45,820 bases of DNA, from contig CAMGIN010000010.1 in NCBI GenBank assembly GCA_946056135.1, positions 1 to 45,820 of the forward strand, read 5' to 3'. Below the pieces are notes generated by a model. That model did no database searches, was not told the DNA's origin, and saw nothing but the letters and a program-made list of their open reading frames with translations. The stretch is from an uncultured bacterium. GTDB taxonomy: Bacteria; Bacillota; Clostridia; Oscillospirales; Oscillospiraceae. Made by a program: the position numbers and the translations under genes. Positions 23,180 through 42,033 of this stretch are shown piece after piece (position 1 is the stretch's first letter; every line of letters begins with the position of its first letter).

Positions 23180-23680
23180 ATGGAGTTAACCGTAGGAACT
23201 GTCTTAGAGGGCAAGGTAAAATCGATCACCAACTTCGGCGCGTTCATCTCCCTTCCGGAGAACAAGACCGGGATGGTACATATTTCCGAAGTCGCCAACG
23301 CATACGTCAGCGACATTCGTCAGCACCTGACGGAGGGGCAGGACGTGAAGGTCATGGTCATCGGAACGGATAACGGCAAGATTAATCTGTCCATCAAGCG
23401 CCTGGAGCCCAGACAGCCGCGGGAAAACTCCGGCGGCAGACCCAATTTCCGCGGGAACGGCGGCCCCCAGCGCCGGGAAGGCGGCAACTACCAGAATCGG
23501 GAGAGCCAGCCCCAGAACCAGAACCGCGCCCAGCGCACGCCGGTTCAGCCTGCCGCGCCAAAGACGGCGGATCAGCTGTTCGAGGAAAAGCTGAAAGCTT
23601 TCATGGCCGAGTCCGACAGCAAACTCTCCTCCGTCAAGGCCTACTCCGACCACCGCAGCAAGAGCAGAAGAAGAGGATAA
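23180..23680 (+). CDS. S1 RNA-binding domain protein (YabR-like) with disordered R/Q/N-rich tail
   Basis: VGTVLEGKVKSITNFGAFISLPENKTGMVHISEVANAYVSDIRQHLTEGQDVKVMVIGTDNGKINLSIKR. Confidence 0.92.
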   Translation: MELTVGTVLEGKVKSITNFGAFISLPENKTGMVHISEVANAYVSDIRQHLTEGQDVKVMVIGTDNGKINLSIKRLEPRQPRENSGGRPNFRGNGGPQRREGGNYQNRESQPQNQNRAQRTPVQPAAPKTADQLFEEKLKAFMAESDSKLSSVKAYSDHRSKSRRRG

Positions 23681-23686
23681 TCTTTT

Positions 23687-23812
23687 GAATGCTGAATGCT
23701 GAATGTTGAATGATGAATGCACTTGAGGCAGCAATGCGCGAAAAGCTGTGCATAGAGGAAACCATAGGTCCCATTCATCATTCAGCATTTAGCATTCAGC
23801 ATTCAGCATTAT
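23687..23812. repeat. Inverted pair of degenerate heptad repeats (GAATGCT)n
   Basis: GAATGCTGAATGCTGAATGTTGAATGATGAATGC and inverted CATTCATCATTCAGCATTTAGCATTCAGCATTCAGCATTAT. Confidence 0.9.
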
Positions 23813-23832
23813 ACTAGAAGGGGGGCGGCTTT

Positions 23833-24531
23833 TTGAAGACGGTGGTCATCACCGGTGGGTCCCGGGGGATCGGGGCCGCTGCGGTGGAATTATTTGCTGC
23901 GCGCGGTGACCAGGTGTATTTCCTGTATGAGAAGAATCAGGAGGCTGCGGACACCGTGGCGGAGAAAACCGGCGCGATTCCTATCCGCTGTGATGTGGCG
24001 GACGGACAGGCGGTGCAGGCCGCTTTTGCACAAATCGGGGATGTGGATGTTCTCATCTGCAATGCGGGCATCTGCTGGTATGGCCTTCTGTCCATGATGA
24101 CGGAAAGCGACTGGGACCGGCTGTTCGCGGTGAATGTCAAGGGAATCTACCACTGTGTCAATGCAGCCATGCCGGCGTTTTTGAAAAAACAGCAGGGCTG
24201 TGTCATCACTGTGTCCAGTATGTGGGGACAGGCGGGAGCCTCCTGCGAGGCGGCCTATTCCGCCACCAAAGGTGCGGTGATTGGACTGACCAAGGCCCTG
24301 GCAAAAGAGCTTGGCCCCAGCGGCATTCGGGTGAACTGCGTGGCCCCGGGGGTCATTCTGACGGATATGTGCGCCAATGTGGACCCGGAGATCCTGGCCC
24401 AGATGGCGGAGGAGGCCCCGGTGGGCCGCAACGGCACTGCCATGGACGTGGCAAAGGCTATGGCATATCTGGCGGATGCCGAATTCGTCACCGGCCATGT
24501 GCTCAGCGTCAATGGCGGGTATGTGATATAA
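23833..24531 (+). CDS. Short-chain dehydrogenase/reductase (FabG-like)
   Basis: VVITGGSRGIGAAAVELFA...ICNAG...YSATKGAVIGLTKALAKELGPSGIRVNCVAPG; TTG start. Confidence 0.93.
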   Translation: MKTVVITGGSRGIGAAAVELFAARGDQVYFLYEKNQEAADTVAEKTGAIPIRCDVADGQAVQAAFAQIGDVDVLICNAGICWYGLLSMMTESDWDRLFAVNVKGIYHCVNAAMPAFLKKQQGCVITVSSMWGQAGASCEAAYSATKGAVIGLTKALAKELGPSGIRVNCVAPGVILTDMCANVDPEILAQMAEEAPVGRNGTAMDVAKAMAYLADAEFVTGHVLSVNGGYVI

Positions 24532-31650: not shown

Positions 31651-31886
31651 GGCAGCCTCCTGAAAAAAGATAATTTCATGCATATATGATAACACATTTT
31701 TGTTGGTTTGCAACAATAATCTGTATTTTCTTAAAGTATGCGCAAGGAAACCGGGGACAATTGTGCGTATTTGGCGAACATGCCGAGTTTTTCAGCATTG
31801 CTAAATTACCGCAAGGAAATCTTAAGGTTCCCGAGAAGCCTTCGACTTGTTTTTCTGCGAAAAAAATAGTACAATGAAGCAATATT

Positions 31887-32322
31887 GAGTGTGGAGTGTG
31901 GAGTTAGGAGTGTGGAGTTAAGGTATCCACTTCGTGGATTCATTAAAAGAGGCTGCAATCCCATCCAGATCAGGAAATGTCGGATAAATGATCGTTTATC
32001 GCACCAAAGGCTTCCTGTATGCAATGTTGTCAACAAAACGCTCCAGGGTCAACTCTTGCTGTCATTGCGAACCAGTCCGCAGACTGGTGTGGCAATCCGT
32101 TTCCCCTTTGTACAGACCGGTTTGACGGAAATGCTCAAAAAACGTAACATTTGGGGAACGGATTGCCGCACCAGCGTGCGCGCTGGTTCGCAATGACAGT
32201 GGTAGTCGGTAACCTGGCAGAACCATCGTACATGCTGCGATAAACGATCATTTACGTAAAAATAGGATACGACTGAATTGTTACCATGAAACACCACAAC
32301 TCCACACTCCACTCTCCACACT
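31887..32322. repeat. Three-level concentric nested palindrome (heptad arms, 18-bp IR, REP-like arms)
   Basis: (GTGTGGA)-type arms 31887-31920/32298-32322; perfect 18-bp IR 31986-32003/32236-32253; REP-like arms 32059-32106/32153-32199. Confidence 0.9.
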
Positions 32323-32339
32323 AAAAAAAGGGGGGCGGT

Positions 32340-33296
32340 ATGATGCCGACGAAAGATAACGCCGTAACCGGCTATGCCCAGCAGATTCTGACGCAGGTGC
32401 GCAAAGCGGTGGTGGGAAAGGATCAGGTGCTCCTGTGGGTGCTCGCTGCCATTCTCGCCCGGGGCCATATTCTGCTGGAGGATATCCCCGGCGTGGGCAA
32501 GACCACCATGGCCCTGGCCTTCTCCCGGGTGCTGGACCTGGAATACAGCCGTGTCCAGTTCACACCGGACGTGCTGCCCTCCGACGTGACGGGCTATTCC
32601 ATTCCCGAGCCGGACGGCAGCGGCCTGCGCTACCAGCCCGGCGCGGTGCTGTGCAACCTGTTCCTGGCGGACGAACTGAACCGGGCCACCTCCCGGACCC
32701 AGTCCGCCCTACTGGAGGCCATGGAGGAGGGACAGGTGACGGTGGACGGCGTCAGCCATACATTGCCCCAGCCCTTTGTGGTCATTGCTACCCAGAACCC
32801 CACCGGAGCGGCAGGCACCTCGCTGCTGCCGGACAGCCAGATGGACCGGTTCATGATCCGGCTGTCCCTGGGCTATCCCAGCCCCAAGGACGAGGCGGCT
32901 ATGGTCCTGAACCGCCAGGGCGGCAACCCCCTGCTGACCTTAAGCCCCCTGCTGACCCGGGAGGATCTGGTGAAGATTCAGGACGCGGTGGAGGACACCT
33001 TCTTAAGCGACAGCGTGGTCAACTATATTGTCGCCCTGGTGGGCGCCACCCGCAGCAGTCCGGATCTGCTTCGCGGGGCCAGTCCCCGGGCCACCCTCTC
33101 CGTCACTGCCATGGCCAAGTCTGTGGCCCGGCTCCGGGGCAGGGACTATGTGACGCCCGCGGATGTGAAGGAGGTCTTCACCCACACGGTCGCCCACCGG
33201 CTTATTCTGTCTCCCAAGGCGGAGGCCCAGGGCAAGCTGCCGGAGCAGGTGCTGCAGGAGATCCTGGCCGGCACCCCGGCACCCCGGCTGCGCTGA
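32340..33296 (+). CDS. MoxR family AAA+ ATPase
   Basis: GHILLEDIPGVGKTTMALAFSRVL...FLADELNRATSRTQSALLEAMEEGQVTVDG...ATQNPTGAAGTSLLPDSQMDRF. Confidence 0.96.
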   Translation: MMPTKDNAVTGYAQQILTQVRKAVVGKDQVLLWVLAAILARGHILLEDIPGVGKTTMALAFSRVLDLEYSRVQFTPDVLPSDVTGYSIPEPDGSGLRYQPGAVLCNLFLADELNRATSRTQSALLEAMEEGQVTVDGVSHTLPQPFVVIATQNPTGAAGTSLLPDSQMDRFMIRLSLGYPSPKDEAAMVLNRQGGNPLLTLSPLLTREDLVKIQDAVEDTFLSDSVVNYIVALVGATRSSPDLLRGASPRATLSVTAMAKSVARLRGRDYVTPADVKEVFTHTVAHRLILSPKAEAQGKLPEQVLQEILAGTPAPRLR

Positions 33297-41558: not shown

Positions 41559-42033
41559 TATCGATAATATTGTACTAATTATGGGCAAAGATGTCAACCT
41601 CAGATTTATACACATTTTACACGAATTTTCCTATCCCCCATTGGGGGATATGAACTTATTCAGGAATGGGGGATATTTTCCGGTCGCACAGGGGGGAAGT
41701 TGGGAGTGTGGAGTTAGGAGTTGGAAGTGTGACGGCAGAAGTGGGGGGATTTTAAGGTTAGCGGTGAGCCACCTGGAGCTTTGCGGAAATTTGCTTCGAT
41801 TTTCCGGAGGGGTTGGGAGAGAATGCCCTCTTAGAGTCCCTTGTGAAATCGGGCTTTTTTGGAACCAAAATGGAACCCAATTGGGAGACAGTTTGGAACC
41901 CCAGATAAGGTTAGGATAGATAAGAAAAGAATAAATAAGATAAGAATAGAATAGAATAGATTCAGAACAGGGGGAACGGGAGCGGAAGGACGATCACAAA
42001 CGGGGTTGTCTCCTGCAAAAACAAGACATAAAA

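Follow-up and report, generated by a model that had tools for sequence, protein, structure and literature searches.

A nest of five inverted-repeat levels, with small palindromes lying inside one another, was found ahead of the moxR gene (positions 31887-32322), and we consider it probable that small non-autonomous mobile palindromes built it up by serial insertion in the moxR leader, every one entering the loop of its predecessor or a point close to that loop. The window, which is the whole stretch of 45,820 nucleotides that was analysed, is contig C10 of a 2.46-Mb genome in 231 contigs that is 83% complete, and the host is here taken to be a Faecousia-like member of the Oscillospiraceae from the gut because the MoxR protein is 89% identical to its counterpart in Candidatus Faecousia faecavium. 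From the outside inward, the nest consists of heptad arms (L1), a GGT-hairpin (L2), GTAACnATTCAGTCG arms (L3), an 18-bp inverted repeat that is the end of a TA-flanked MITE (L4) and a REP-like doublet (L5). An earlier note on this DNA had described three of these levels, the heptads, the 18-bp inverted repeat and the REP-like arms, and all three exist where it placed them; L2 and L3 had been overlooked. The features are:

23683..23812, no strand assigned: second heptad element, class GAATGCT, between an S1-domain-like and a fabG-like gene
31847..31875, plus strand: putative promoter of the moxR operon, with -35 TTGTTT (31847-31852), a 17-bp spacer and -10 TACAAT (31870-31875)
31887..31921, plus strand: left heptad arm of L1 (GAGTGTGGAGTGTGGAGTTAGGAGTGTGGAGTTAA), from the sequence, self-comparison and period-7 tracts
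31922..31939, plus strand: left GGT-hairpin of L2, GGT ATCCAC TTC GTGGAT; an equal module with covarying stems lies inside heptad arms elsewhere
31951..31984, plus strand: left arm of L3, degenerate (GGCTGCAATCCCATCCAGATCAGGAAATGTCGGA); a weak call made by eye, from its position ahead of the L4 TA and its likeness to the flanks at C21:8353 and C90:7542
31985..32006, plus strand: left terminal inverted repeat of L4 (TAAATGATCGTTTATCGCACCA), beginning at TA
32059..32105, plus strand: left REP-like arm of L5 (CTGTCATTGCGAACCAGTCCGCAGACTGGTGTGGCAATCCG..), itself a hairpin
32153..32199, minus strand: right REP-like arm of L5, itself a hairpin
32233..32254, minus strand: right terminal inverted repeat of L4, ending at TA
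32268..32284, minus strand: right arm of L3 (CGACTGAATTGTTACC)
32288..32297, minus strand: right arm of L2, a remnant only (GAAACACCAC), called by eye against GGAAATACCACAACTCC of C117:372-392
32298..32322, minus strand: right heptad arm of L1 (AACTCCACACTCCACTCTCCACACT)
32330..32335, plus strand: Shine-Dalgarno-like GGGGGG ahead of moxR, not part of the nest and left single-stranded by the predicted fold
32340..33296, plus strand: moxR-type AAA ATPase gene (AAA_3 and AAA_lid_2, by domain matches), the first gene of the operon

The perfect 18-bp repeat of L4 (AAATGATCGTTTATCGCA / TGCGATAAACGATCATTT) sits within 22-nt arms (31985-32006 / 32233-32254) that are 95% complementary, and the 47-nt arms of L5 (32059-32105 / 32153-32199) are 87% complementary. 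With midpoints at about 32105, 32120 and 32129, the levels are near-concentric, as the earlier note had proposed. The predicted RNA fold of the nest has an energy of -192.7 kcal/mol (z = -10.3), and none of 100 shuffled sequences was equally stable; because of this, and because every level is multicopy in the genome, so that no layer is unique DNA, the nest is far beyond chance. The heptads close the predicted structure, and the GGGGGG Shine-Dalgarno and the AUG lie outside it, unpaired.

The nest occupies the 5' leader of the moxR operon in the order promoter, nest, Shine-Dalgarno. The gene upstream is divergent and matches Bmp lipoproteins, and moxR is followed by a weak DUF58 match (below the cut-off) and a transglutaminase-like gene. 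A promoter block, AAGGAAATCTTAAGG..CTTGTTTTTC..AGTACAATG, is kept upstream of moxR in nest-free relatives, and both its consensus and its conservation suggest that TTGTTT/TACAAT acts as a promoter. At L082, L084, L085, L086, L088 and L190 the same block is followed by a short, repeat-free leader from TACAAT to the Shine-Dalgarno; the nearest relatives compared are about 75-82% identical in moxR DNA, so these are nest-free leaders and not strain-level empty sites. Since relatives that share the promoter block have short leaders without the repeat, the nest is best read from this comparison as an insertion into the moxR 5' leader. Other relatives have elements elsewhere in the same intergenic region: L087 carries a heptad arm upstream of the promoter, and at points different from that of the nest, L090 and L196 carry an L4-like element around a CCGTAGGGG hairpin and L194 carries TTGACAA heptads around a REP-like core. 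Transcription from the moxR promoter would include the nest, which is predicted to fold on itself with the Shine-Dalgarno left free, and this may explain why it is tolerated.

A BLAST comparison of the nest with its own genome gave matches at 90 places. L4 and L5 together form a unit of about 270 bp at six other genome places, with 77-91% identity. The L4 motif has 210 copies in the genome (a reversed control pattern had none) and occurs in few copies in 17 of 135 other genomes of the genus, and the nest as a query, mostly through its L5 core, matches 22 of 41 genus genomes with its own counted. L2 is present in 33 copies in its own genome and occurs in 7 of 200 other genomes of the family; one of the seven, from a different genus, has 14 copies, and two others appear to be chance hits within genes.

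Arms of every family were marked on 61 contigs, which cover 1.55 of the 2.46 Mb and to which the arm-order and heptad-tract counts for this genome refer, and were then read in sequence. Among 131 pairs of neighbouring arms that belong to different families and lie on one strand, 116 follow the order L1>L2>L3>L4>core and 15 another order, counts that are not independent events because composites were copied as units. Nearly all of the 15 discordant pairs belong to a single multicopy composite, in which L4 lies around a class-B heptad element and its L2; it is found twice on C90, on C44, on C49 and at several contig ends. Copies of this amplified composite lie at C90:3077-3315, C90:4884-5100, C44:3657-3881 and C49:5952-6175, and several contigs end inside copies. 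Each layer recurs singly as well as nested. Heptads, L2, L3, L4 and L5 are all present at C5:30034-30451; C90:7445-7594 reads 1A>2>3>4>1B before the contig ends, and C90:3050-3340 reads 1A>4>1B>2. Simpler forms include heptads around a loop of 10-17 nt (C1:17502, C48:5165, C22:14674), heptads with L2 alone, and L3 without L4. An arm interrupted by another element was apparent in one case only, a class-A heptad around L4 around a class-B heptad.

The earlier note had suggested either that repeats entered one another's loops or that the whole is a composite mobile element, and both parts of that suggestion agree with the data: layers found alone and nested, in a near-constant order, together with an internal empty site for L4 described below, fit the first, and the recurring L4+L5 unit and the amplified L4-around-heptad composite fit the second. 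Under serial insertion, the layers of the nest would have come to lie inside one another by acts of insertion into loops. In the order of events that we infer, along with the enzymes invoked for it, a heptad-hairpin element (L1+L2) would have entered between the promoter and the Shine-Dalgarno, an L3 element would then have entered L1+L2, and the TA-targeting MITE (L4) would have followed, with the REP-like doublet (L5) either already aboard or gained later. The preference for loops could reflect a cruciform or hairpin tip as the target, or the purging by selection of insertions into arms.

An alternative that we regard as fairly unlikely is that L3, L4 and the core form a single composite transposon whose long terminal repeat has two blocks, and that this composite alone hops into heptad elements, so that two events would suffice instead of four or five. 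L3 and L4 are separated by 12-16 bp in 27 of 32 cases, and the 270-bp L4+L5 unit and the amplified L4-heptad composite also speak for movement as a single unit. L4 is, however, found without a recognisable L3 at C17:14395, C18:25199 and C84:1907, L3 directly encloses other elements at C8:26786 and C41:12511, short L3 palindromes without L4 occur at C35:13233 and C11:38947, and the L3 spacers differ between the left and the right side.

Serial insertion is also consistent with the structure of L4. Of the 31 L4 pairs, which are non-coding, nearly all span 135-285 bp with matching ends; their terminal repeat is of the type TAAATGATCGTTTATCG.., and with few exceptions TA is found on both sides, within the target NRTAYN (purine-TA-pyrimidine). 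L4 shows the features of a MITE, with terminal inverted repeats at both ends, a length under about 300 bp and no coding capacity. The L3 palindrome without L4 at C35:13233-13300 aligns without gaps over 70 bp (77%) to the sequence that results when the two flanks of the L4 element inserted at C21:21353 are joined and one TA is kept, and on the strength of this alignment it is a paralogous empty site for L4. The contents of the L4 core slot vary: the L5 doublet, GTAG-REPs, CTCTCCC..GGGAGAG hairpins or a whole heptad element. In a search that allowed 3 substitutions, and for which the control pattern was uninformative because it overlapped the query, 40 of 53 GTAGGGCGGGG GTAG-REP copies lie near a correctly oriented L4 arm.

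Within the window, a further L4 end lies near the contig edge (45739-45762), and its partner may lie beyond. A second MITE-like family, with GTGGTTATCGGCTTTA ends and a REP-like core, was seen at C33:8496-8785 and C25:3570-3854; the former sits in an L4 right end with a 10-bp direct duplication (AACGATCATT), and the latter has the flanks AAACGCCAA(T/A).

The heptad elements, which recur in several genera with unrelated heptads, have an architecture in common: period 7, inverted arms and a covarying GGT-hairpin. The heptads in the genome are GAGTGTG, GAATGCT, AAGTTGA and rarer ones, and different heptads have a common module directly inside the arm: GGT, a perfect stem of 5-6 bp, a triloop (TTC, TCC or TCT) and usually GAT..AAA. 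The stems covary (ATCCAC, ATCCC, ATCCCC, ATCCGC, ATTTCC, ATGCC). A hairpin scan inside the heptads that assumed a tetraloop found nothing, the actual loop being a triloop. In other genera the same module accompanies other heptads, namely GTAATAG (L270), AAGACTG/AAAAATG (L273, L274) and GGACAGT (L275). Permutation of matched arms gave 0/2000 for heptad classes A and B and no significance for class C (n=5), a test that deserves little weight, since choosing the partners by similarity biases it upwards. The heptad pair at 23687-23812, which had been taken as an echo of the outermost level of the nest, repeats its architecture (7-bp period, inverted arms, position after a stop codon) with a different heptad, GAATGCT instead of GAGTGTG.

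It is very improbable, in our judgement, that the heptad arms are microsatellite-like simple repeats, expanded in spacers by slipped-strand events and neither mobile nor structural. Many bacteria have an excess of heptameric repeats, for which slippage has been put forward (PMC4692102, PMC4679880), whereas in this genome period 7 alone is enriched: across 1.55 Mb, lag 7 gives 84 tracts and each of the lags 4-6, 8-13 and 15 gives 0-9, with 31 at lag 14, the harmonic of 7. In 268 kb of the relative G038, 20 of 25 period-7 tracts have an inverted partner, which is seen at no other period except 14 (counts exclude runs of N). Slippage yields direct repeats and not matched inverted arms, and the GGT-hairpin core common to unrelated heptads and their position right after stop codons likewise argue against it.

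Placement sets the heptad elements apart from L4. Of the element ends that face a stop codon, 23/40 are no more than 12 bp away from it (10.6% expected), and of those that face a start, 16/38 are 8-40 bp away (16.6% expected), whereas the same tests gave 3/23 and 2/23 for L4 pairs outside heptads. These tests used a simple gene caller of our own, and the expectation is uniform insertion into repeat-free gaps; the p-values of 5e-13 (stop) and 2e-4 (start) are optimistic because the cut-offs were chosen after the distances had been seen. The GAATGCT heptads at 23683..23812 begin about 6 nt past the stop codon. At this junction between the S1-domain-like and fabG-like genes (window 23680-23833; L316-L329), heptad elements begin 5-6 nt past the stop in 3 of 14 species, each with a different heptad: GAATGCT here, AGTTGAA/AGTGGAA in L319, and AGTTGAC with a GGT-hairpin in L324. 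Three other species have TGTCATTGCGA REP-like repeats, one has an L4-like element, five have shorter spacers without heptad, TGTCATTGCGA or L4-like repeats, and two have overlapping TGATG junctions. Either different heptad elements insert alike at this junction, or one architecture persists there with turnover of the heptad.

Could the nest instead be a functional RNA or DNA device under selection, such as a leader regulator, an mRNA stabiliser or a translational control, with the repeats as its building blocks? We consider this improbable. The predicted self-closing fold with its free Shine-Dalgarno, the covarying L2 stems and the location of heptad elements right after stops and right before Shine-Dalgarno sequences speak for such a device with a putative regulatory role. 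Yet the orthologous sites in relatives have no conserved nest, no Rfam family was matched at the gathering threshold in the whole window, and the L4 pairs outside heptads have no such placement.

We tentatively propose, as one of several possibilities, that L1 belongs to an undescribed family of mobile hairpins in the Oscillospiraceae that is defined by its architecture: GGT, a covarying triloop hairpin and GATTnAAA, with inverted arms of strict 7-nt period in which the heptad itself is free. Such elements would insert a few nucleotides after stops or just before ribosome-binding sites, and their loops would serve as landing pads where further miniature elements stack in a preferred order. This raises the question of what machinery holds the 7-nt period and the inverted arms while the heptad changes. 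Furthermore, PMC12306157 cites the finding that ribosomes are stalled by E. coli REPs lying no more than 15 nt from a stop codon, and by comparison an effect of post-stop heptad placement on operon expression is testable.

A lone heptad tract (GGAGTGTGGAGTTAGGAGT) without a clear partner lies at 41696-41731 of the window. In G237, a genome of another genus (L276, L280, L282, L286, L288), the GGT-hairpin is preceded by tandem hairpin-like units (TGATATCCCGCTTCGCGGG.., GTGATATCGTGCCCTTTGGGCACGGTTAA) instead of heptads, possibly a variant architecture around the GGT-hairpin core.

The genome has one Y1 transposase gene (C9, 5840-6310; locus L031). It scores 77.7 bits against the NCBIfam model of REP-associated tyrosine transposases (NF047646; cut-off 80), is above the cut-off for Pfam Y1_Tnp, matches PDB 4er8 (TnpArep) and is flanked by inverted GTAG-REP copies (GTAGGGCGGGGTCATGACCCCGCC), an arrangement that amounts to a REPtron in a Faecousia-like genome. 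A search for a TnpA-REP elsewhere in the genome, as the earlier note had advised, thus turned up a RAYT gene, but one whose flanking REPs differ from the core of the moxR nest. Its GTAG-REP family (GTAGGGCGGGG) fills the cores of other nests; the moxR-nest core starts CTGTCATTGCGA and has no GTAG tag, and the RAYT was ruled out as its mobiliser because the gene is flanked by a different REP family. Likewise, an IS630-type gene (PF13358) on C4 (12390-13480; locus L350), which consists of two overlapping frames, occurs once in the contigs read and has no clear terminal repeats, was ruled out as the source of L4 since it has no L4-like ends on both sides. No L4 pairs 600-3500 bp apart, as for a long insert, were found on the contigs read, and the 83% complete genome, of which 1.55 of 2.46 Mb were fully read, yielded no mobiliser for L1, L3, L4 or L5.

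No published concentric nests with a preferred order, and no GGT-hairpin heptad element, were found in a search of mainly open-access literature, a result that argues only weakly for novelty. A 2024 review of prokaryotic MITEs (PMC10969869) does not use the terms "nested", "within another" or "inserted within". The closest counterparts of the heptad elements are the Xanthomonas GGGAATC heptamers and the cyanobacterial heptanucleotide repeats, which have the same 7-nt period. The Xanthomonas heptamers form 70-75 convergent inverted pairs per genome, located very near or overlapping stop codons, and have been explained by G-quadruplexes (PMC4692102). The elements described here differ from both in that several unrelated sequences occur per genome, with a GGT-hairpin core and loops that host other elements. 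Runs of three G are absent from GAGTGTG, GAATGCT, AAGTTGA, GTAATAG and AGTTGAC, and because heptads without G-tracts show the same placement, the quadruplex rationale for the similar Xanthomonas repeats is weakened.

L4 resembles the TA-target MITEs of the IS630/Tc1-mariner type in being short and non-coding, with terminal inverted repeats of 17-22 bp, TA at both ends, a high copy number and a gene-adjacent position. It differs in that a parent transposase with matching ends was not found in the 1.55 Mb read, and in its exchangeable core, which may hold several REP families, terminator-like hairpins or a whole heptad element. The GTAG REP/REPIN and RAYT system (PMC3733652, PMC3116915) has its equivalent in the host genome, where a RAYT with inverted GTAG-REPs is present and such REPs fill many L4 cores, whereas the moxR-nest core (TGTCATTGCGAACCAG..) is of another family, without the GTAG tag and unlinked to the RAYT. 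L5 may be likened, by description, to the CGTC-tagged REPs (PMC3733652), which likewise form inverted pairs of short hairpins and lack a transposase of their own; the tag here is TGTC, and the phyla listed for CGTC-tagged REPs do not include Firmicutes (PMC3733652).

Mobile elements that enter palindromic repeats specifically are also known, as with the IS elements that target REP sequences (PMC1525189). In the nest, unlike those cases, the inserting elements are themselves miniature palindromes, at least five deep and in a preferred order. Nested insertions as such are already known, and a readable order of palindrome within palindrome provides a record of the succession of elements and of their choice of targets. 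The nest represents a known kind of arrangement in a new form, and of all its parts the heptad element has the best claim to novelty.
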